This document shows positions 5,982 to 59,517 of a stretch of DNA of 64,000 bases, piece after piece. Source of the DNA: Ptychodera flava (taxonomy: Eukaryota; Hemichordata; Enteropneusta; Ptychoderidae); NCBI RefSeq assembly GCF_041260155.1, contig NC_091948.1, positions 3,084,001 to 3,148,000 of the forward strand, given 5' to 3'. A program made the position numbers and the translations under genes. Under the pieces are notes generated by a model. That model saw only the letters and a program-made list of their open reading frames with translations, had not been told where the DNA came from and did not search any database. Position 1 is the first letter of the stretch, and each line of letters opens with the position of its first letter.

Positions 5982-8900
5982 TAATAATAGAGCAAGGGTC
6001 CTCTTTTCTCTTCACCATTGGAAACAATTAAACCTAAGTACAGAAAATTGTAACCAAAATGCTTGTAAGACAAGGCATTATCAGTTTGTTGCCAGCGCTT
6101 GTGCACTACTTTTGTCACCATGTCTATTTCTTGAATCAGATTTTAAAATGTGTTACACCGTACAAGTCAATGTCAGCAGGAGCCAATTCCAGTTTTTATG
6201 TCATCCAAACCACACATACCAAAAAAGCATCTGTTCATGTCTTAACAATGCAACTATATTTGTTGTGATCATCTTCAGCCTGACTCTGATGAGGACGAGC
6301 CAGCTCCAAAGAAAGCCAGACCAAGTTCCCAGGTATGTTATCTTAGTCCCGGATAATAACAGTACAGGTCTTACATACATGGAATACTGTTTTTCTCCTT
6401 CTCCTTACAATGGAGATTTTTTTTTTCAATAACTGATGTGGCTGTCAGGAGTAAGTAGTGCTGGAAAATATTTTGCTCTTCCCTAGGGAAATTGGAAAGA
6501 AGACTGCAGAGTGGCTCTGTGTCTTCCATGAAATGGAAAATTGCTAACTTACGACTTAAGTGCAAAATCGATTCAGATCATGAATCGGGATTATTTTCAG
6601 AATATTGCAAGTGTGAATGTTACAATGTGACAATTGTTAGTAAAGAAATACTAGAATGTGATTTTGTCTGTATGTCATCAGTTCATACAGGCTTTGGTCC
6701 CTATGCTGTGATTGCCAAATTGTGTCAGTGACCTTAAGTGCTCTGTCGTTATTGTTCGTCACTTCAAAGTATCAATAAATTTTTTCCAACTATGCTATTG
6801 CACTATGAAGCTGCACTCAAAATTTACTGTTCTATCTCTATAGGGTTCTGGACTGTTTGCGTTGCTTCCCCAACCAAAACATGCCATAGCAAAGGAAAAC
6901 AACAGGATCCTCATCCCACACACACTGACCAAGAAACCAAGTGTACAGAAACCACAGGTGAAGACACCAGCCACATCAACTAAACCACAGACATCCAAGC
7001 CAGCTGTCAGGACATCTGGAATGGCAGGATTTTTAAATTACGGCAGTGATGAAGACGACGAACCGAGTAGTTTCTTTTCTCTTGATGAAAAAGATACTCA
7101 AAAGTTAAATACTGAGAGACAAGTCCAGAATGTGAAATCAGAAAATGTTTCATCCACTGTGAATCAGACTTTGAATACCAAAATTTCTTCAGGTCAGGAT
7201 ACTCCACTGGCTTTCAAAAATTCACAGTCAAATTTGCATCAGAACAATTCAATATCTATGCAACAGGCAGCAAAAATTCCTCCAGTGAGTGACCATCTTG
7301 CATCCTCATCAGCGACTAGTACAATGCCAATGAACAGAGCAGATGCACCTCTTGATTTCAGTCGAAGTTCAAATGCCGTGAGTTCATCCAGCCATGGATA
7401 TGGAGCCAGTGGCAATTCCTATGGCTACAGTCAACAGTATCAACACAGCTACCAGGATTACAACCAACCGTATCAAGAACCCTACCAACAGGTGCTGGTC
7501 TGCTAATATGTACACTTTAACCATCAAAAGATTTTGAATTTTATCTTTTTGGGAGGTTTTCGTGTTTTTCACCAGTGATGATGAAAATGGGTATGAATTT
7601 TGTACGATAGTTAAAAAAATAAGATCTTGCTTCTTTTGCTGAAGATGAAATATGCACAACTGTGTGCCTCATCCTGCTACATGAAGTATTCGTACTTTCA
7701 TTCAGCCATCAAACAAGGCAAATGGAAACAAAACTTTTATGTAGCAATCTGTTAGGTACATCCAGTTGTTTAGAAATACATGAGTATAACAACACAAATA
7801 CTTGTTTTGTTAAGTGTAGTAGAATCTACTAGGTGTATAAATGAATGTTTGGTGGCTTCAAAATAAATTCACTGACCATGTCAAAAAATCCAACTGTAAG
7901 GTTACCACTTTATCTTTCACAGAATAACAAAATGTTATCACCAGCTCTAACTCAGCTGTATTTGCCTTTCAGTATACTGTTACAGAAGATCAATCCAGTG
8001 GTTACCTTGGCAACAATCAGGAGCAGTACCAAGCCGCTGAGAGTACATCACATGATGATTACATCAATGATGAAGGGGTGAGTCCTGGCATTGTAACTGC
8101 TTGCACACACTGTAGTTTGCATGTAGATGTTGATTTTGTTGTCAAGATTACTTCAAATGTCGTCAGATGCATGTCGATTTGTTTTGTGATACGATCTAAT
8201 TTGGCTGCCAGGCAGCCATTTTATTACGATTTTTTCATGTACAGAGCCATTACTCAGGTACGTTTCGACCGATTTATTCAAGTTGGTACAAGGACATTGA
8301 CCTATGTCATACATATGCATGTCAATTTGTTTTGTGATAAGATCCAATATGGCTGCCGGGGGGCCATTTTATTTTGATTTTTTTCATGTACAGAGCCATT
8401 ACTCAGGCATCATTCAAACGACTTTATTCAAAGTTGGTACAAGGACATTGACCAATGTCATAGCTATGCACATCAATTTGTTTTATGATATGCCACAGTG
8501 CGGCCATTTTGTTATGATTTTTTCATGCACAGAGCCATAACTCAGGAATATCTCAACCGATTTTATTCAAAGTCGGTACAAGGACATTGACCTATGTCAT
8601 ACACATGCACATTGATTTGTTTTGTGATACAATCAAATATGGCTGCCATGTGGCCATTTTGTGACGTTTTTTCATGTCCGGAACCATAACTCAGACATGT
8701 ATCAAGCGAATTTATTCAAAGTTGGTACAAGGAGATTGACCAATGTCATACATATGCACATTAATTTGTTTTGTGATACAATCTAATATGGCTGCTGTGC
8801 GGCCATTTATTTTTATGATTTTTAGTCCCCACGGACACCGTCCGGGGGACTTATAGTTTGGTCATGTCCGTGCGTGCGTCCGTGCGTGCCGTCCGTCCGT

Positions 8901-11900
8901 CCGTCGTGCTCCGTCCGTTCACGCAGATATCTCGGAGATGCAAGGAGCGATTTCATTCGAACTTGGTACAAGGATTACTTCATATGTCATACAGATGCAC
9001 GTCGATTGTTTTGTGATATGATCCAATATGGCCGCCAGGCGGCCATTTTATTACGATATTTTCATGTACAGAGCCATAACTCAGACATGTTTCAACCGAT
9101 TTTATTCAAAGTTGGTACAAGGACATTGACCAGTGTCATAGATATGCATGTCGATTTGTTTTGTGATACGATCCAATATGGCCGCCAGGCGGCCATTTTA
9201 TTACAATTTTTTCATGTACAGAGCCATAACTCAGACATGTTTCAACCAATTTTATTCAAAGTTGGTACAAGGACATTGACCAATGTCATAGATATGCAAG
9301 TGTATTTGTTTTGTGATACGATCCAATATGGCCGCCTGGCGGCCATTTTATTACAATTTTTTCATGTACAGAGCCATAACTCAGACATGTTTCAACCAAT
9401 TTTATTCAAAGTTGGTACAAGGACATTGACCAATGTCATAGATATGCAAGTCTATTTGTTTTGTGATACGATCCAATATGGCCGCCTGGCGGCCATTTTA
9501 TTATGATTTTTTCATGTACAGAGCCATAACTCAGACATGTTTCTACCGATTTTATTCAAAGTTGGTACAAGGACATTGACCAATGTCATAGATATGCAAG
9601 TCTATTTGTTTGTGATACGATCCAATATGGCCGCCTGGCGGCCATTTTATTACGATTTTTTCATGTACAGAGCCATACCTCTGACATGTTTCAACCGATT
9701 TTATTCAAAGTTGGTACAAGGACATTGACCAATGTCATAGATATGCATGTCAATTTGTTTTGTGATACGATCCAATATGGCCGCCAGGCGGCCATTTTAT
9801 TACAATTTTTTCATGTACAGAGCCATAACTCAGACATGTTTCAACCAATTTTATTCAAAGTTGGTACAAGGACATTGACCAATGTCATAGATATGCATGT
9901 CGATTTGTTTTGTGATACGATCCAATATGGCCGCCTGGCGGCCATTTTATTACAATTTTTTCATGTATAGAGCCAAAACTCAGGCATATCTCAACCGATT
10001 TTATTCCAAGTTGGTACAAGGACATTGACCTATGTCATACATATGTACGTCTATTTGGTTTGTGATACGATCCAATATGGCCGCTAGGCAGCCATTTTAT
10101 TACGATGTTTTCATGTACAGAGCCGTAATACTCAGACATGTATCAAGCGAATTTATTCAAAGTTGGTACAAGGAGATTGACTACTGTCATACATATGCAT
10201 GTCAATTTGTTATGTGATACGATCCAATATGGCTGCCGTGCGGCCATTTTGTTACGATTTTTTCATGTACAGAGCCATAATACTCAGGCATATCTCAAAC
10301 GATTTTATTCAAAGTTGGTACAAGGACATTAACCTATGTCATACATATGTAGGTCTTTTTTGTATGTAGGTCATTCTTGGCCATTGAGCGTATCTGTATC
10401 AAAGTATTTTTATCACAGACCTAATTAATGAAGAGGACTCTATCCTCTCTGAGGACATGTAATCAAAGTACCCATTAACAAGTGGGGACTGTGTCATCAA
10501 CGATGACTTGTTTCATGTACAGAGCCATAACTCAGGCATATCTCAACCGATTTTATTCAAAGTTGGTACAAGGACATTGACCTATGTCATACATATGCAC
10601 ATTGATTTGTTTTGTGATACGATCCATATGGCCGCCGTATAGCCATTTTATTAAGACTTTTTCATGTCCTGAACCATAACTCAGACATGTATCAAGCAAA
10701 TATACAAAAGTATTTTTATCACAGACCTAATGAAGAGGACTCTATCCTCTCTGAGGACCTGTAATCATAGTACCCATTAACAAGTGGGGACTGTGTCATC
10801 AACGATGACTTGGTTTTTAAACCTGAGGGGATCTGATTAGTCGCTCTATAAATATTCCTTATCAGCGATCTAAGCAATCTCACGTTTACATGTCAATCAA
10901 CAAGGTATAAATTTAGATCGGGTCAAGCATCCTCAGCGGTATTCACTGGACCAGAGAACAATCGTCTGCTTGCGATGGCAGACACAAACATTGGACAGCT
11001 GCTGTCTACGTAGTCCTGGGTACGACGCTGTGTGTTCCCCCAACGTTTTACGGCCTCCCACCACATGTGGTGGGAGCTAGGCCTTACAACGTCGGGAACT
11101 CACATCGTACGCAGGACTACTGTCTACGCTCTTTTTGTTTCAAACACGGAGACCGTGTTACAATCAATTGATCGAGACGCCATCAGCGAAGACATTTACT
11201 AGAAGAGAATTTTTATTGCCTCGCTCTGCCCAATGTCGATATCCATTCCGTTTTAAGATCGATGAGTCTCCGTTGAAGAAAAAGAGCAAGTTTATGTTTC
11301 CTTTTCCTGATCTGATCATGAATCCTGAACTGCACCCGTGTATTGGTCGATATGGACAAATACACAAACAAAACACTATCGTACTCATTAAAATACACTT
11401 CCCTACACCTATTCTTAACGAAACAAACACTATTGTAACACTAACAATTGGATAGTAACGTGGGGATCCTATTTCACATATATCAGAAACGAGACAAACA
11501 CCAATGCAAGGCAAACTTTTTTATTGTAAGGTGGGGACATCCATTTTTCTACCTTTGCCATAACGAGGGTTGTTGTCGGACACAGTTTTGAATTTGGCTC
11601 ACAACCGTTTGATTTTGTCGTGACGTTGCTCCGCGGTTCTCTTGATTTCCTTTTCCCTGGCCCTGGCAGCGATGACCTCATAAACTTGCCTATCTCTCGA
11701 CCATGGACGGAAAAAAAGATTGTTTATGTCCATGCTCGACCGTCCATCATACGGATGACGTTTTTATCTCGCCAGATGGAAATGAGTATATTTTGATTTA
11801 ATTAAACTACAAATGTACTCATTTCCATCAGTTCGTCCTGCAACCAATCGCTGCCACGATCGTCCGAACTTCTTGCCTGAACACCATCCATTGTGGTAAT

Positions 11901-20079: not shown

Positions 20080-21038
20080 TCTGAACATAGTATTTGTGAT
20101 GTCTGTAAGCTGTAAACTGTCATAAACTATTCTGTAGACATGTCTTGCAATGTATCAGTCTACACTATGAACTTAGAATAATGGATCACAAAGGAAGGAC
20201 AAAAAAGAAGCAGTCTGTTTTTACAGTTGTCTTTTATTTTGTTGTAAAACATGGCTACATATTGGTATAAAATAGAACTCTAATAAATTTCAACATTGTG
20301 CATTCAAAAGTAAAAAACAAATAAATTACATTGCATTCATCTGGAAAACCTGATTTACGAGTCATTTTCTTTAAAATATGTGTACCTCTGTCATACAGCT
20401 GCTAATTCACAATGGTTGACTTTTTATTGATAATTTACATAAATTTTTCAATCTACATGGATGTACGTATACTTTGGAGGCAAACTGAGTTTTCAGTTGA
20501 TGGTTAGGTACATTAACTTTATGAGATGTTATTCAAAAACTTCATTACAAAGAAAACAAACACTATGATAAAGATGTCATTTCTGTTAAACACATTTACT
20601 ATTTAGGTAATACATAGAACTTTGGTCAGTAGGTGTGTTGAAATTAATATGAACACATACATCTACATACACAAACATACATGCACATAGTACATGCGCA
20701 GAGTACATGAACACATACATCAATACACACATGCATGTACAGAGTACATGTACACAGTACATGCACACAGTATAATGAAGCGAGCTTTGTCTGCTGCAGT
20801 CCTTGCATTCCACATATGTTAAAGTCTTTGGTTTGTAAATGTCAAAATTTAATACAACTTTCTTGCATATGAATTTACATGTAATTATCATATTGATGAT
20901 GATATTCCTCTGTTTCTATGGTTACCCCATCACCATCAAGTTCATTCTCAAACACAGGAGTCCTACTGTTTACTGTTGGGATGTCATCCATAATTTGCCC
21001 AGTTACTTTGTTCATTTTTTTCAGTTTAATACCTGATT
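20080..21038 (-). other. 3' flank of the small heat shock protein gene
   Basis: Probably includes the 3' UTR. Minus-strand AATAAA signals are present near 20230 and 20423. A degenerate ACAT/GTACATG simple repeat fills 20645-20770. No gene was recognised. Confidence 0.45.
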
Positions 21039-23086
21039 TCAAGTGTTTGCAAGGCGGATTTGCCGATGTAGTCTGACTCCTTTTACTGGTATCTGAACGT
21101 CTTCTAGGGGAACATCATGACGATATTTGATACCTTCAATTTTCAGGATGCCATCTTTGTCGTAGTTTGCTGATAAACTCCGTGTGTCAACGCCCTGTGG
21201 GAGTTTCACCTTTCGCTCCAGTTCCCTCTCAAAACAACTTTCATCGCATCGACAGACATGTCTGCCTTCCAGTAAGAGGTTACCGCCATTTGTCGAAATA
21301 GTGAAATCTTCTGGATCATAATCTTTGACATTCAGAGAGACAATTTCAACTTTCTGTCCCATCTGTTTAGAATTCCGATGATTTGCATGGACTCTGTGAT
21401 GATTTTGATTGTGTTGGTGATTGGAATGCTGACCATTATGACCTGATGGATGCTGGTTCCTGCTTCCTGTCCTCTGTTGACCAGAGCTCACTGTCTCTCT
21501 CCTCAAACGTTCACTTTGTCTCATCCTTTCCTCCTGGAAATCAAAACATAAAAGGAATACGTTTGAAAACCAAGTTTGTCAAAGAATTACCATTGTGCTC
21601 TTGAACATCAAAAATGTTACATGTAATGAGTGCAAAAATCAGTCCCCCTAGCTAAATTTTCAAAAGTTGCTGCAAGCAATATTCTTTCATTTTAATGTGA
21701 CTAGATTTAAAATAAAATTTATGTAATGTCTAGATTTTTAGGGAATATTATTTCCCTCAGCTACTTATTTGAAAGATTACCAGAACCAAACAAATATTTC
21801 AAAGACAAAATTTAACCAGTTCACCTCTATTCCCTGTAAACAAGTCCACAGTTACCATTGGTAACAATGGGTTTGGGCCAAGTCATGGTTGTGAAATGGT
21901 TAAAGAAAAGTTACTGACCTCTTGCTTTTGTCTTAGGAGTTCAATCTCTCTCTGTTTCTGCTGCTGAAGTTCAAGTTCTTGCTGCCTTTGCTGTTGCAGT
22001 TCCAGCTCCCTCTGCCTTTGCCTCTGAAATTCACGCTCTCTTTGCCTCATCCTTTCAAGCTCCAGTTCTCGCTGTCTCTTTTCCTTCAGTTCTCTCTCTT
22101 TTTGTCTCTCCATTTCTTGTTTCTGCAGCTGAATTTGTTGCTGTCTTTGGACTTCTTCCTGCCTCCTAATTTCCTGCCATTGCTGTTCAATCTGCAACTC
22201 TTTTTGACGTTTCAGCTCCTCTCGTTGTCTCAGTTCTTCTTCAATCTTGTTTTGCCGTCTCAAGAGTTCCTCCCTTTCACGGACAAGTTCTTGGTACCTC
22301 TCAGCATTCTCAGTTTGGAGTCTTTCCAATTCCTGCTGCCTGGCAATTTCAGACTGCCTTTCACGTTCAACCTGGTGTTGCTGTTTGCGGATTTCTTCAT
22401 CTCTGGCTTGCTGGCAGGAAGTAGATCTGTCACGCTGGTGGTTTTTATCGCTAGTTTTCAGTCCTTGCTGCCTGTATTCACTATTTACTTTGTCTGTCAC
22501 ACCTTGTTGACAATTTGCTTCACATCTCCCGTGCTGCTGCCTCTCTGGGAGCAAGGAGTGGTACCATCTCTGAGTTTGGAAAATATCATCAAAGAAGTGG
22601 GACGCAAATGGATCTTTCCATTGACCATCCCAGCCATTCCAAGTCCACAGCTGTTCAGGAAAGTGTGGTCCAAAGTGCCACACATCAGATTGCAGAGGTC
22701 TCAATCTGGCAATTTGATACAAAAATGAAACATATTAATTTTCAATTCACACTGTTTTCATATTTGAAACAAGCAATGAAACATAGTACATGTTAAGGAA
22801 CATGCATGAGAAGCATTTGAAGTATTCGAGTAGTATATCAGGGCTGATCTGAAAGCACTTTTCTCTCTCAATATAATCCCATTATTCTGATCAGATCATT
22901 TGTTGATAAAACATATCTAATGATATCTGATACCTTATTTTGAATGTCTATTTCGATTAATATAAAAGAAAGATGGTATACCTACCCATTGTTTCCAAAC
23001 TGCAGTCTCAGTGCATCACATGTCTGGCTCTGCCACAATATTGTGGTCAGAGCTAGGCCAACCAACAGCTTCACAACTTTTCCCAT
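21039..23086 (-). CDS. Predicted secreted/ER small heat shock protein: signal peptide, coiled coil, alpha-crystallin domain (3 exons)
   Basis: Predicted holdase chaperone of the secretory pathway. Exons 23086-22986, 22705-21919 and 21533-21039 join in frame to 460 residues. Residues 1-25 form a signal peptide: basic MGKVVK, hydrophobic LLVGLALTTILW, likely cleavage after QTCDA. A Trp/Phe-rich segment follows (WHFGPHFPEQLWTWNGWDGQ and FFDDIFQTQRWYHSLLPE), as in small HSP N-terminal arms. Residues 110-320 are a Glu/Arg/Gln coiled coil, and 325-355 are Gly/Asn/His-rich. The alpha-crystallin domain spans about 357-430 (VEIVSLNVKDYDPEDFTIST, GNLLLEGRH, ANYDKDGILKIEG) and carries three cysteines in CRCDESC. 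An I-x-V anchor (QIPV) follows. There is no transmembrane segment after the signal and no KDEL-type end (RLANT). Small HSPs are usually short and cytosolic; this size and targeting are unusual. It is divergent from HAX1, and the promoter has TATA and ER-stress motifs. Confidence 0.85.
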
Positions 23087-23332
23087 CAGCAAATTGTAAT
23101 ATTATATCCAACAGATGTAAATTCTTCCGAACAAATACTAAGTTTCGATGAATATACTTTGAATCGCTAGATTATTTCTCCGAATCTACAAATTTCCCTC
23201 GATGAACAGTGACAGCCTTGACTTTCAGTATTTTACGCCTCTTTACCAATGCGTGGTTTCCAGATCTGGATTTACGGATTAGCTCAACTGAATAATTGAA
23301 TGGAATAACTACCACACCAAAACTTGTAAGAA

Positions 23333-23338
23333 TTTATA
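23333..23338 (-). promoter_or_regulatory. TATA box of the alpha-crystallin gene
   Basis: TATAAA on the minus strand, about 250 bases upstream of the start codon, which predicts a transcription start near 23305 and a 5' UTR of about 220 bases. It lies 22 bases downstream, on the minus strand, of the TGACGTG motif. Confidence 0.55.
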
Positions 23339-23359
23339 CTCACCGCCTGTCGCTAAACA

Positions 23360-23366
23360 CACGTCA
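23360..23366 (-). promoter_or_regulatory. UPRE/ATF6-XBP1 core TGACGTG
   Basis: The minus strand reads TGACGTG, the core of the unfolded-protein-response element bound by ATF6 and XBP1 in vertebrates. A 7-base match alone is weak; its position between the TATA box and a perfect ERSE is what makes it notable. Confidence 0.5.
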
Positions 23367-23382
23367 GCTAACTGTATCTCGT

Positions 23383-23401
23383 CCAATGAGAGTGACCCAC
23401 G
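23383..23401 (+). promoter_or_regulatory. ER stress response element (ERSE), CCAAT-N9-CCACG
   Basis: CCAAT (23383-23387), nine bases, then CCACG (23397-23401): an exact match to the NF-Y/ATF6 element found in promoters of ER chaperones such as BiP. It lies about 300 bases upstream of the alpha-crystallin start codon and 238 bases upstream of the HAX1 start codon. ERSEs act in either orientation, so it could serve one or both genes. Confidence 0.65.
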
Positions 23402-23638
23402 CAAGCATAGGATATCGATGAGTCCGCTGAGTTTGATGTACACGTGTATCTTGTTTGATTGCATCAGTGTTTACATCCAAAGTTCTAAAAATAGCAAGTA
23501 TGAATGACATCATGATTTGCCACTACGCATGACCGTGTACGTTTTACGGCCAGATTGTCGTGAATTTCCGTATTAGTGAGAACGGAACAGAAGCTTCGCG
23601 AGCAATCTGGCATTGTCCCTGAGGAACAGGAAGTCAGT

Positions 23639-26600
23639 ATGAACTTTCATGACTTTTTCGGAAATATTTTCGGTTTTCCTCGACATAGACGACCACCCAG
23701 GTTAGTAACGCTTTCCGGATGTTGCCGTTCAACCCCAAACCCCAGGCAAAACCTCGAGCGACTGTACTGCAGTCTGTACCAGTCTTACATCATAGGAAAA
23801 ATTACACACACAAATCTTGCAGTCTATACCTAACTACTGTAAATGTATTTATCATCTCAGACTCTGTTTCCCTGCGATAGTCACTCTGCCTATCATCCAA
23901 TTTTCACACACTCTGGCAACGCCAAGATCATGACGAATATAAATGTTAGGCAATATTACAACAGTGTTGAGAATTGTAATATCGAGATAATTTTTTTCCT
24001 CCACCAGTCCATGACATGATCTCACCATGGAGCTAGAAACGTATCTCACAATCATAAAACAACATAACTGTCATACACATATGTACCATATGACCTTTTC
24101 AGGGATGATGATGATGAGGATGAACATGGAGGCATTTTTGGTTTCCATGGTTTCCATGATGATGGTGCCGATGAAGACCAAGAGCATGGTGACTCCCATG
24201 GTGATTTTTTCGGGGATCCATTCCAAGGTTTAGCTCGGGAAACAGAAGACATGTTCAGACATTTTGAGAGACATTTCAATGAGATGTTTAAAAATTTTGG
24301 TTTGGCAGAATTTCCCCCGATAAGTGAGTAATGTTGATATTTTTACTTTTTAAAGTACAGTAATTGGTATGGAGCCAGTGTAGAGTTATTACACAGATGA
24401 TGAAATACCAATGTCACATTTCAAACATGTATTATGGAGTTCTGTGCAGTACCTTAATGTACCTGCTTACGTTAAGTTTATCCCTCCCAAACAGAGTAGG
24501 AAATGACTGCCAATTTAAAGTTCAGGGCTGGTAAATTGTCCATTGGGAAGTGGAAATTTTACAATGTAACCTGCCATATAGATGGGTGGATATAGGTCAG
24601 ATGGGATCATAGGCAAGGTGTTCTGGGTATACTGTGGGCAAGACATACCATATTGTCAAGGCAGCTAGTTTTTGCTTTTGCAGCAACTTTTATTTATAAT
24701 TCACAGTCACATGCACTGATGTCTGTCATTATTTTCCATTGATGTCCTATACTACCGAAAGTTATGATGTCATCGTGCAGTTTTTGATTCACACTTTTGG
24801 CTCATTTTTGCAAAAAACTCGCCAAATGCTACTTTTTTCTCGCATTTGCGATTTGGCGAGTGGGCAACGGAAACACTGCAGTATTCATCATGTACCTCTA
24901 ATAAAAAGTCTGACTCCTTGACTATTGCTGTTTTCCGTGCAACCCTTCTGTAGGGCAGGTAGCTCATATAGATCTTTGAATTCCTTATTCATAGACTGGC
25001 AAATGTTATTATGAATTACGGATAAAGTGTCATGCCACATTGTAACACAACTGATGTATAGATGTTGATATGCATCTTCATAAACAAAGGTTATTTAAAA
25101 ATCTACAAATTTACAAAAAGAGAACAGATCAAAGAGAGGCAAATGAGCAATTTGAATTTCTTTAATTTGTCATGACATATAATGTTATGGATGCATTTTG
25201 ATTTCCAAGGTGACCATTTTCAATCAATGCTAACAATGTTGTCCAAATTGTGATGGTGACAAGTAGAAATAGTGTTGGAGTGTATTGTTGTCTTTTTTCA
25301 TGTCAGTTTCTGTATACTTTGATATTGGTCTCTACAAAGCAGATAAATAGAACAAACACAAGACAAGTAGATCAATTTCGTCATCAAATATAGAAACTTG
25401 ACAATTTGTGTGTGTTTTTTTCTGCAGATGTACCATCAATTGAAGGTCCGAAATCGGAGGGAAAGTCAGATCCTTGAGAGATGAAATGCTTAAGAAACCA
25501 AATGCAGAAAAATTTTCAGATGCAGAGAGGAAGCCCTTGCCGTTTGATGATAGTAAAGTAAGTACACATTCCATTAACTCCAACACCGTAAAGCTGCAGT
25601 TGTGCTTATGCTAGATTACAAGGGTTTCCTAAATACCAATAATTGATGAAAATTTTAAAACAATTATAATTTATCAATTATCATATTTACTATTCTAGTT
25701 CTGTTTCAAGTACATAGCTTGAAGATATTATTCACTCTACTTGAAAAATTTCTTATTCTTATCAGACTGTGTTTGAATCAGATTCTGCAAAGATCAATTA
25801 CCAATAGCTGTCTAAATGTCATTTAATGTTTTGAATAGAAAATATCCAGTTTTCTGAAATATTAGTGTATTTCTTATTGATTTCCAGCCATTTTTCAAAG
25901 AGTGGCATTGGAACTTGCCATACAGGTTACCAAGGTCAACACAACCACCAACCAGGGACGAAAAGAGGGATCGAGGTAACATAAGCTGTATCATTAAAAT
26001 ACGTAAATTTTGGATTGTAACTGGAATGTAGCTAGTACAGGATAGCATAGTACTTTTTGTGTATATATTCATAAAAAATCATAATGTCTTTAATCAGTGT
26101 GTCTTCTGACTAAAAGTGCTACAATTTGATACCTTTGAAGAACTTGCTCAGATTGCCCAGATATCTCTTTAGTAGAATAATCTTAAATAGGTGCACAGTA
26201 ACAAATGAAACACCCAAACATTTGCATTGTCTCATCACTTGTAACTTGTCTTGAGTAGTTGTTGTTCCCCAGGGGTAAATTACAAACTCCTAACTGCATC
26301 TTGTCGATACTGTTGTATTGTAGATTTAGATGGTGAGATCTCTGCTGGCAACTTGGATGCCATCTTGCCAGGTGGCAACCAGAGTCCAGACCGAATTGTG
26401 CCAGACCAGCCCCAAAGCAGGTCATTCTTCCGTAGTGTGTCTGTGACTAAAGTGAGAAAACCAGATGGGGTAAGTGCTGATTTGGTCACATTGTGGAAAA
26501 CAAGTCTTTGGAAGGGAAAAATTCCATCAAACTCTGAATAGAAGGACTTTAACACTTAGCCCATAGGTAGGAAACCCTCAGGTCAGATATTCCAAGTTGT

Positions 26601-44479: not shown

Positions 44480-47420
44480 TTTTTAAATATCGGATATTTA
44501 CAATCTAGTATCGAAGTTTGACATATCGACGTTTTCGGGACTAGTATCGATACTAACGATACTAGAATGAAATGCCGTCGTTCCATGGGAAGCTGTTGGG
44601 ACTTTAATATCGATACTAGACGATACTATGATGACTAGCCTTGTACCTCGGCACACCGGATCTGTGAAATCTCCGATATTTACCCGATATTTATCGGCGA
44701 TTTGGGGACTCTAATATCGATACTAGACGATACTAGAATGACTTGCCTTGTGCCTCGGCACGCCGGATCTGTGAAATCTCCGATATTTACCCGATATTTT
44801 TCGGCGATTTGGGGACTCTAATATCGATACTAGACGATACTAGAATACTTGCCTTGTACCTCGGCACGCCGGATTTGTGAAATCTCCGATATTTACCCGA
44901 TATTTTTCGGCGATTTGGGGACTCTAATATCGATACTAGACGATACTAGAATGACTTGCCTTGTGCCTCGGCACGCCGGATCTGTGAAATCTCCGATATT
45001 TACCCGATATTTTTCGGCGATTTGGGGACTCTAATATCGATACTAGACGATACTAGAATACTTGCCTTGTACCTCGGCACGCCGGATCTGTGAAATCTCC
45101 GATATTTACCCGATATTTATCGGCGATATGGGGACTCTAATATCAATATATCATATATTTGAGTCTGTCAAATCGCAAGTAAATATCCGATATATATCGG
45201 AGATTTCACAACCTCACCGTTCTGGCCAAGCCCGACTTCCGAGGACTGACTCTAGCATCGATACTAGACAATACTAGAGTTTGTCAAATGGCAAGTAAAT
45301 ATCCGATATATATCGGAGATTTCACAACCTCACCGTTCTGGCCAGCCCGACTTCCGAGGACTGACTCTAGCATCGATACTAGACGATACTAGAGTTTGTC
45401 AAATCGCAAGTAAATATCCGATATATATCGGAGATTTCACAACCTCACCGTTCTGGCCAAGCCCGACTTCCAGGGACTGACTCTAGCATCGATACTAGAC
45501 GATACTAGAGTCTGTCAAATCGCAAGTAAATATCCGATATATATCGGAGATTTCACAACCTCAGAGTTCTGGCCAAGCCCGACTTCCAGGGACTGACTCT
45601 AGCATCGATACTAGACGATACTAGAGTCCGTCAAATCGCAAGTAAATATCCGATATATATCGGAGATTTCACAACCTCACCGTTCTGGCAAGCCCGACTT
45701 CCAGGGACTGACTCTAGCATCGATACTAGACGATACTATAGAGTCTGTCAAATCGCAAGTAAATATCCGATATATATCGGAGATTTCACAACCTCACCGT
45801 TCTGGCCAAGCCCGACTTCCAGGGACTGACTCTGGCATCGATACTAGACGATACTAGAGTTTGTCAAATCGCAAGTAAATATCCGATATATATCGGAGAT
45901 TTCACAACCTCAGAGTTCTGGCCAAGCCCGACTTCCAAGGACTGACTCTAGCATCGATACTAGACGATACTAGAGTCTGTCAAATCGCAAGTAAATATCC
46001 GATATATATCGGAGATTTCACAACCTCAGAGTTCTGGCCAAGCCCGACTTCCAGGGACTGACTCTAGCATCGATACTAGACGATACTAGAGTCTGTCAAA
46101 TCGCAAGTAAATATCCGATATATATCGGACACTTCCATGGACTGACTCTGGCATCGATACTAGACGATACTAGAGTTTGTCAAATCGCAAGTAAATATCC
46201 GATATATATCGGAGATTTCACAACCTCACCGTTCTGGCCAAGCCCGACTTCCAAGGACTGACTCTAGCATCGATGCTAGACGATACTAGAGTCTGTCAAA
46301 TCGCAAGTAAATAAATATCCGATATATATCGGAGATTTCACAACCTCAGAGTTCTGGCCAAGCCCGACTTCCAGGGACTGACTCTAGCATCGATACTAGA
46401 CGATACTAGAGTCTGTCAAATCGCAAGTAAATATCCGATATATATCGGAGATTTCACAACCTCAGAGTTCTGGCCAAGCCCGACTTCCAGGGACTGACTC
46501 TGGCATCGATACTAGACGATACTAAGAGTCTGTCAAATCGCAAGTAAATATCCGATATATATCGGAGATTTCACAACCTCACCGTTCTGGCCAAGCCCGA
46601 CTTCAAGGACTGACTCTAGCATCGATACTAGACGATACTAGAGTCTGTCAAATGGCAAGTAAATATCCGATATATATCGGAGATTTCACAACCTCAGAGT
46701 TCTGGCCAAGCCCGACTTCCAAGGACTGACTCTAGCATCGATGCTAGACGATACTAGAGTCTGTCAAATCGCAAGTAAATATCCGATATATATCGGAGAT
46801 TTCACAACCTCACCGTTCTGGCCAAGCCCGACTTCCAGGGACTGACTCTAGCATCGATACTAGACGATACTAGAGTCTGTCAAATCGCAAGTAAATATCC
46901 GATATATATCGGAGATTTCACAACCTCAGAGTTCTGGCCAAGCCCGACTTCCAGGGACTGACTCTAGCATCGATACTAGACGATACTAGAGTCTGTCAAA
47001 TCGCAAGTAAATATCCGATATATATATCGGAGATTTCACAACCTCACCGTTCTGGCCAAGCCCGACTTCCAAGGACTGACTCTAGCATCGATACTAGACG
47101 ATACTAGAGTCTGTCAAATCGCAAGTAAATATCCGATATATATCGGAGATTTCACAACCTCAGAGTTCTGGCCAAGCCCGACTTCCAGGGACTGACTCTA
47201 GCATCGATACTAGACGATACTAGAGTCTGTCAAATCGCAAGTAAATATCCGATATATATCGGAGATTTCACAACCTCACCGTTCTGGCCAAGCCCGACTT
47301 CCAAGGACTGACTCTAGCATCGATACTAGACGATACTAGAGTCTGTCAAATCGCAAGTAAATATCCGATATATATCGGAGATTTCACAACCTCACGTTCT
47401 AGCCAAGTAAAGATTTCACC
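44480..47420. repeat. Satellite array in two opposed halves, about 25 units
   Basis: Left half (about 44480-45140): five units of about 106 bp containing GTGAAATCTCCGATATTTAC and ATCGATACTAGACGATACTA. Right half (about 45150-47420): about 20 units of 116 bp containing AAATATCCGATATATATCGG, GAGATTTCACAACCTCA and TAGCATCGATACTAGACGAT. The left unit resembles the reverse complement of the right unit, so orientation flips near 45150. The CTCACCG and CTCAGAG variants alternate through the right half. One unit near 46120 is truncated. Confidence 0.9.
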
Positions 47421-48038
47421 ACCTCATCGTTCAATCTAAGTTCGATATTGTAGAGTCTAGTAGCCGTAAATATCGGATATCATATAAAAGTGCAATGTCG
47501 CGGTGTCCTCGATTTTGCAGTGGAGGATCGAAGATCAAGATGCTGGCAGTTGAACTTTGTGAGCGAATGAATTCGAATGATTCCTTCCGAAGTCCGTTCG
47601 GACGACTATGAGCCGTAAAATCTTACCGGTTCTTTCTATGTTTTTTGTGATGTTTACAGATAAGTTAATTAAAGACAATTCCCAGTTCTTCACTAACTGC
47701 ACCACGTCTTCCACAATGCTTCCTGCTAAATATTCAACCAGCTGAATGGTTTTACAAACGCCAAGCTTGCATTACAGCGCCACCATTCATGATTGTGTGA
47801 AACGTCACAGCTTGAGAGATATGAACTTTGACCGCACACCCATCGAAACGTGAAGTGTACGTCACAATATTCTGCGAACGTGGCTCGTGACATCGTGGAA
47901 TACGGCGTTTCATTCCTAACCAACGGATGCGAGAAAACTTCCAAGCCGTTTAGTACACTCTTTGCCGCTGCATTCATTTTTTGGAGTCCGTTTGTAGTTA
48001 GAGGACAAGAAACAAGGGTGTGTTGTTTTTACTGAACT
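47421..48038 (+). promoter_or_regulatory. UPF1 upstream region
   Basis: The sequence between the satellite and the UPF1 start codon should contain the promoter and 5' UTR. No TATA box is evident close to the start codon. Minus-strand and plus-strand frames at 47726-48035 look like background. Confidence 0.4.

Positions 48039-59517
<11,479 letters not shown>

Follow-up and report, generated by a model that had tools for sequence, protein, structure and literature searches.

The 64-kb window analyzed here (64,000 nucleotides of contig NC_091948.1 of Ptychodera flava) contains a predicted gene on the minus strand, whose three exons (23086-22986, 22705-21919, and 21533-21039) join into one frame of 460 residues. 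Both introns, of 280 bp (22706-22985) and 385 bp (21534-21918), are of the GT-AG type and carry stops in all three frames, and exon 2 has no stop in one frame of its strand, with 24 and 10 in the other two. The opposite strand also has long open frames across the helix-coding part, a consequence of the Glu and Gln codons of the helix. The coordinates, strand, GT-AG introns, and joined frame of an earlier sequence-only reading were all reproduced, and the predicted model of three exons encoding 460 residues holds. From the N- to the C-terminus, the protein comprises a predicted signal peptide, a Trp/Phe-rich arm, a Glu/Gln/Arg-rich helix, a His/Asn-rich linker, an alpha-crystallin domain with a CxCxxxC cluster, and an IPV anchor. 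The features are as follows:

22986-23086, minus strand: exon 1, 101 bp, residues 1-33 plus two bases, with the ATG start at 23086
23012-23086, minus strand: predicted signal peptide, residues 1-25, with likely cleavage after CDA25
22507-23011, minus strand, split by intron 1 (22706-22985): Trp/Phe-rich arm, residues 26-100
21919-22705, minus strand: exon 2, 787 bp, residues 34-296, carrying the arm and most of the helix
22510-22524, minus strand: CxxxC in the arm, residues 95-99
21919-22419, minus strand: exon 2 part of the predicted polar Glu/Gln/Arg helix, residues 130-296
21504-22098, minus strand: run of seven decamers (residues 237-306) whose register is kept across intron 2 (21534-21918)
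21039-21533, minus strand: exon 3, 495 bp including the stop, residues 297-460
21489-21533, minus strand: exon 3 continuation of the predicted polar helix, residues 297-311, outside the exon 2 AlphaFold2 model
21498-21509, minus strand: RLRR, a furin-like motif at the helix end, residues 305-308
21372-21482, minus strand: His/Asn-rich linker, residues 314-350
21108-21341, minus strand: core of the alpha-crystallin domain, residues 361-438, matching PF00011 and alpha-A-crystallin
21234-21254, minus strand: CxCxxxC, residues 390-396
21084-21092, minus strand: IPV anchor, residues 444-446, within VQIPV
20238-20428, minus strand: pair of poly(A)-type AATAAA signals, starting at 20428 and 20238, 3' of the stop

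On the 3' side of the gene, ATTAAA is also present at 21030 and 20853 of the minus strand. An ORF of 79 codons in a different frame (20875-21114, minus strand) overlaps the end of exon 3 and continues beyond its stop, possibly by chance. An alternative C-terminus through this ORF was dropped, as it matched no Pfam family and inspection by eye revealed no splicing that would join it to the gene. A tblastn search with the domain and the arm over the 64-kb window returned the gene itself and weak matches only, with no second copy; one of these (58261-58094, minus strand) resembled the arm at E 7.6e-4 with the low-complexity filter off, but it contains an in-frame stop and was judged a chance match. 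Scans of the viral_contigs and genome_contigs collections, both poorly suited to an animal gene, gave 26 and 45 pattern matches, respectively, and no relatives.

Neither tRNAs nor Rfam families were found in the 64-kb window, and two of ten neighboring ORFs matched Pfam (a TIR domain and a UPF1 zinc-binding region). The TIR-domain open frame lies at 1139-1816 on the minus strand (PF13676, E 1.3e-11). Plus-strand stretches at 48036-48386 and 59155-59517 belong to a UPF1 gene, whose zinc-binding exon matches PF09416 (E 3.9e-33); about 11 kb upstream of that exon lies the probable N-terminal UPF1 exon. From 23640 onward on the plus strand, with an exon near 24105-24325, lies what is presumably the start of a HAX1-like protein, MNFHDFFGNIFGFPRHRRPP, whose second exon has no Pfam match. 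This HAX1-like gene and the gene described above stand head to head, which suggests a common promoter region near 23400-23600. Further pieces of the window are, we assume, PRCC-like and poly(A)-polymerase-like. Tandem arrays with units of about 150 bp occupy 8215-8778 and 8948-10360, the second with about 9.4 copies and 91% matches, and open frames run through them. Adjoining satellite-like arrays with 107-bp and 116-bp units (95-96% matches) and with unit parts in common were found at 44598-47407.

The alpha-crystallin domain of the protein is clear. Residues 348-460, scanned alone (113 residues), matched the Pfam HSP20 family PF00011 with an E-value of 1.2e-9 (38.7 bits, cut-off 20.8). The whole 460-residue protein matched no Pfam family at E up to 1, an empty scan that we put down to the composition filter. 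A search of PDB sequences with the domain gave 40 distinct sequences at E up to 1, of which alpha-A-crystallin was the best (E 1.3e-8); 39 of the 40 are named crystallins, heat shock or small heat shock protein (sHSP)-domain proteins, or Stress-induced protein 1, the exception being an antibody chain (E 0.078). In NCBIfam, the only match was a sub-threshold one to archaeal Hsp20 (15.4 bits, cut-off 140), and AlphaFold2 did not fold the segment from its single sequence (mean pLDDT 34.9). When aligned with HSPB5, the three cysteines of CxCxxxC fall on E106, Q108, and G112, and R403 falls on R120. The stretch with these cysteines lies between strands beta-5 and beta-6+7 of HSPB5. The cysteine of HSPB1 in the same stretch, presumably Cys137, aligns with E400 and thus not with the CxCxxxC positions. 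The IPV at 444-446 aligns with the IPV of HSPB1 and is an anchor of the I-x-I/V type. Both the cysteine-bearing domain and the anchor proposed by the sequence-only reading are thereby confirmed, and by domain and anchor the predicted protein is taken as an sHSP. The computed mass of its mature chain (53.1 kDa) exceeds the 12-42 kDa given as the sHSP subunit range (PMC7069362), which is customary rather than defining.

Upstream of the domain, the arm contains seven Phe and six Trp in 75 residues, so the aromatic enrichment seen earlier is genuine, and its WKDPF and FFDDIF are reminiscent of the WDPF-type arms found in other sHSPs. This motif is suggestive, but alignments gave no support for homology, and none is claimed here: 510 of 2000 and 1378 of 2000 shuffles aligned equally well with the arms of HSPB1 and HSPB5, respectively, and none of eight matches to PDB sequences at E up to 10 was an sHSP. 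The N-terminal 133 residues matched no Pfam family at E up to 1. The earlier statement that typical sHSPs lack such an arm was too strong, since Trp/Phe (WDPF) arms are described in many sHSPs (PMC4175457). The linker is rich in His and Asn as proposed (nine His, seven Asn, and six Gln in 37 residues). Six cysteines occur in the mature chain, at 95, 99, 131, 390, 392, and 396, with none in residues 132-389, and these cysteines may suit an oxidizing space. The mature chain has no N-glycosylation sequon, which is also true of 0.229 of shuffles.

Between arm and linker, residues 136-313 contain 44 Glu, 41 Gln, and 35 Arg in 178 positions. Seven successive decamers of the E-x-E-L type were identified here, and exon 3 starts exactly at a decamer border, with Glu at residue 297. 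Identity at lag 10 was 0.294; with every lag from 2 to 40 considered, 0.0008 of 5000 shuffles came up to this value. Identity was likewise high at lags 20 and 30, mildly raised at lag 8, and 0.173 and 0.142 at lags 7 and 11, respectively. Tandem Repeats Finder reported a period of 30 at 21938-22038. The decamer register is kept across the exon 2/3 junction, which argues against a split of helix and chaperone domain between two genes and supports their membership in a single predicted gene.

A repeat of this kind might also point to a secreted structural protein of the egg coat, mucus, cuticle, or mineral matrix, in which a Gln/Glu decamer rod is cross-linked and the alpha-crystallin domain serves for assembly only. 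The 10-residue repeat itself and the 41 Gln in 178 residues fit this explanation, as does a likeness to cross-linked rods of the involucrin/trichohyalin kind. Involucrin and trichohyalin are rods, and involucrin likewise has 10-residue repeats and is cross-linked by transglutaminase. The retained IPV anchor and R120 equivalent indicate a working sHSP core instead. HSP20-domain proteins take two rows among the mussel shell proteins reported in PMC6641155, but these rows are silent on signal peptides. We consider a purely structural role rather unlikely.

Whether the chaperone would act outside the cytosol depends on the 101-bp exon 1. Its product has a top 11-residue Kyte-Doolittle mean of 2.52 (residues 7-17), preceded by K3 and K6, and Cys-Asp-Ala satisfies the (-3,-1) rule at the predicted cleavage site. 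The earlier claim of a signal peptide agrees with the rules for hydropathy, n-region, and cleavage. Among 3000 AG sites drawn at random from the window, 109 had an equally hydrophobic upstream exon and 32 had one that satisfied all three rules, so that the real exon exceeds chance expectation; the hydropathy threshold of this control was chosen after the real value (2.52) was known. In another control, which required a donor of at least 7/9 and a hydropathy of 2.3 or more, 14 of 800 sites qualified; the real donor (6) is below that bar. A location in the ER lumen or outside the cell, as suggested earlier, would fit a predicted signal on an alpha-crystallin protein; the C-terminus is RLANT, without a KDEL-type end. 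Retention in the ER lumen or in secretory granules, where the protein would help to fold or pack secreted clients like GRA45 of Toxoplasma, is in keeping with the predicted signal exon and with the GRA45 precedent (PMC7567896), but the missing KDEL-type end speaks against it, and we regard it as unlikely.

Exon 1 could also be false and the protein a cytosolic sHSP extended at its N-terminus by a long polar stretch. The donor TGG|GTAGGT agrees with 6/9 consensus positions, the start codon has a weak context (C at -3 and G at +4), the chance rate is 32/3000, and reviews describe sHSPs as leaving cells in vesicles or by direct translocation for want of a classic secretory signal (PMC9867986, PMC7481362). 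Against this, of the four candidate first exons within 955 bp upstream of exon 2 (correct phase and donor of at least 6/9), the 101-bp exon alone reached the signal-peptide rules, and without it no in-frame Met occurs before residue 232, which lies within the helix. No ATG occurs on the minus strand in the 321 bp before the start (23087-23407), and 23087-23640 has seven ATG compared with 10.5 expected. The cysteines, if they do suit an oxidizing space, would argue in the same direction. A cytosolic protein is quite unlikely, and the 101-bp signal exon is likely, as judged from these sequence features, to be the true first exon.

The Glu/Gln/Arg region had been described as a coiled coil of about 200 residues through which the protein might assemble. 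The region has about 180 residues, and it showed no heptad signal in the periodicity and a/d tests with which the coiled coil was checked. Heptad-band power over residues 134-313 was equalled by 0.547 of shuffles (0.323 and 0.999 for the first and second halves), whereas that of tropomyosin, treated in the same way, was equalled by 0 of 1000. Mean a/d occupancy was 3.13 of 8, compared with 6.88 for tropomyosin and 2.79 for the myosin VI single helix, and the exact periods 3.5, 3.6, and 7 were equalled by 0.188, 0.109, and 0.494 of shuffles, respectively. Counted with a single residue set for query and tropomyosin, hydrophobic triples at heptad spacings numbered three; shuffles averaged 6.6, and two tropomyosin stretches of 180 residues each had 47 and 46. 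By arithmetic, each 10-residue unit rotates the helix face by -80 degrees, and because of this turn no continuous hydrophobic seam forms. The length and predicted helicity of the region would suit a coiled coil that drives oligomerization after all, as might the slightly higher a/d occupancy of its first half (residues 134-223; 3.76 of 8) and the period of 7.25 of the largest single Fourier peak in the scan, a value without shuffle comparison. With the heptad, triple, and decamer results against it, such a coiled coil appears very unlikely and was not adopted as the main reading, and assembly by this route is unsupported.

A long polar helix is the more probable form of this region. AlphaFold2 predicted from exon 2 an uninterrupted helix of 166 residues (exon 2 residues 96-261, protein residues 130-295) with block pLDDT mostly 88-98; at a rise of 0.15 nm per residue, its length would be about 25 nm. 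In frame 0, exon 3 opens with EERMRQSERLRRETV, of which 10 of 15 residues are E, Q, R, or K. The AlphaFold2 helix is weaker evidence than it appears, because a polyglutamine protein is likewise drawn with pLDDT >90 (PMC10622901), and it may be an artefact of Gln-rich composition. Foldseek found one match to the exon 2 model (E 4.8), and PDB sequences gave two weak nucleoporin rows (E 0.78 and 1.2). Opposite-charge pairs show enrichment at spacing 3 (z 5.2) and, to a lesser degree, at spacing 4 (z 1.7), and a simplified single-alpha-helix score was 0.15, which none of 200 shuffles of the region reached (tropomyosin, 0.08; myosin VI, 0.39). The predicted helix resembles stable single alpha-helices as described in PMC5812594 in being long and polar without a hydrophobic seam; it differs from them in its Gln-rich composition and in a charge network weaker than that of the myosin VI control (0.15 versus 0.39), and a strong single-alpha-helix label was not adopted on account of that weak network.

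Taken as a whole, these features suggest, with about an even chance in our estimate, a secreted, ATP-independent sHSP holdase that acts both in the secretory pathway and extracellularly. The signal peptide would direct the chain into the ER and be cleaved after A25. As in other animal sHSPs, chains would dimerize through their alpha-crystallin domains, and oligomers would arise as the IPV anchor of each chain docks onto the domain of a different one. Exposed hydrophobic stretches of unfolding clients may be bound by the aromatic arm, and the polar 25-nm helix would act as a spacer rather than a coiled-coil zipper, holding the sticky arm off the domain core and keeping client complexes soluble. 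Arm and domain cysteines might form disulfides in an oxidizing space that lock loops or chains, and pH sensing or metal binding is a possible role of the His-rich linker. We favor this holdase because a single one of the four upstream first-exon candidates fits, with no further in-frame Met until residue 232, because the domain combines its PF00011 match (E 1.2e-9) with R403 at the R120 position and an IPV aligned to the HSPB1 anchor, and because the decamers stay in register across intron 2, one long helix without heptads is predicted, and all six cysteines of the mature chain lie outside residues 132-389. Counting against it are the mediocre donor (6/9), the C at -3, arm alignments no better than shuffles, the absence of sequons (0.229 of shuffles), the pLDDT of 34.9 for the alpha-crystallin segment, and the possible Gln-rich helix artefact. 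A two-chain, clusterin-like extracellular sHSP, cut by a furin-type protease at RLRR308 into an arm-plus-rod chain (26-308, 35.8 kDa) and a His-arm/alpha-crystallin chain of conventional sHSP size (309-460, 17.4 kDa) that disulfides would hold together by linking CxxxC of the arm to CxCxxxC of the domain, would mean that a clusterin-like design arose independently in animals, with the sHSP fold as its starting point, but it is highly improbable, and the single RLRR may be there by chance (1.7 expected in shuffles of residues 134-313).

With HSPB1, HSPB4, and HSPB5, the putative secreted holdase has in common an alpha-crystallin domain, the R120 equivalent, an IPV-type anchor after the domain, and an aromatic arm before it. 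It differs from all three in its predicted signal peptide, in the polar helix of about 180 residues and the His/Asn linker between arm and domain, and in its mature mass of 53 kDa, and from HSPB1 also in having three domain cysteines away from the position of Cys137. A closer counterpart is AvHSP28.6 of the sea anemone Anemonia viridis, described as a protein of 248 residues with a predicted signal (1-20, overlapping in part with a predicted transmembrane stretch), a WDPF-type arm (39-70), and one alpha-crystallin domain (101-184); its authors then knew of a signal peptide in no other identified small HSP (PMC4175457). By that description, the predicted signal, the WDPF-type arm, and the single domain are alike, while AvHSP28.6 is shorter and no long helical insert is stated for it. 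GRA45 of Toxoplasma gondii is also similar in its predicted signal, sHSP-like domain, and I/VxI/V motifs, and it is active in the secretory pathway; it is a protist protein whose sHSP homology was found via a secondary-structure-based search only, and the account consulted does not mention a long helix (PMC7567896). The main text of a survey of 228 annelid sHSPs contains neither "coiled" nor "secreted," and "signal peptide" once (PMC9075518). Among the literature matches listed, no animal sHSP combined a signal with a long helical insert, which is weak evidence of absence. Novelty is limited by the AvHSP28.6 and GRA45 precedents: a signal on an animal sHSP is already in print, and a long polar helix between arm and domain was not found in print among the sources consulted.

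In its proposed mode of action, the P. flava protein may work like clusterin, which is secreted and ATP-independent and has helices, disulfides, and hydrophobic client-binding parts, its disordered hydrophobic tails being likened to the substrate-binding regions of sHSPs (PMC12527946). Clusterin differs in its coiled-coil, disulfide, and alpha/beta domains and in its N-glycosylation (PMC12527946), and its family was not matched in Pfam at E up to 1 by the N-terminal 133 residues or by the whole protein, in whose scan composition may mask weak matches. Known animal sHSPs are cytosolic, and a signal encoded in the gene would mean that some animals have a dedicated secretory or extracellular holdase, a job that is clusterin's in vertebrates. 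The protein would also offer a natural construct for studying the sHSP core under oxidizing conditions and the effect of a rigid spacer between arm and domain.
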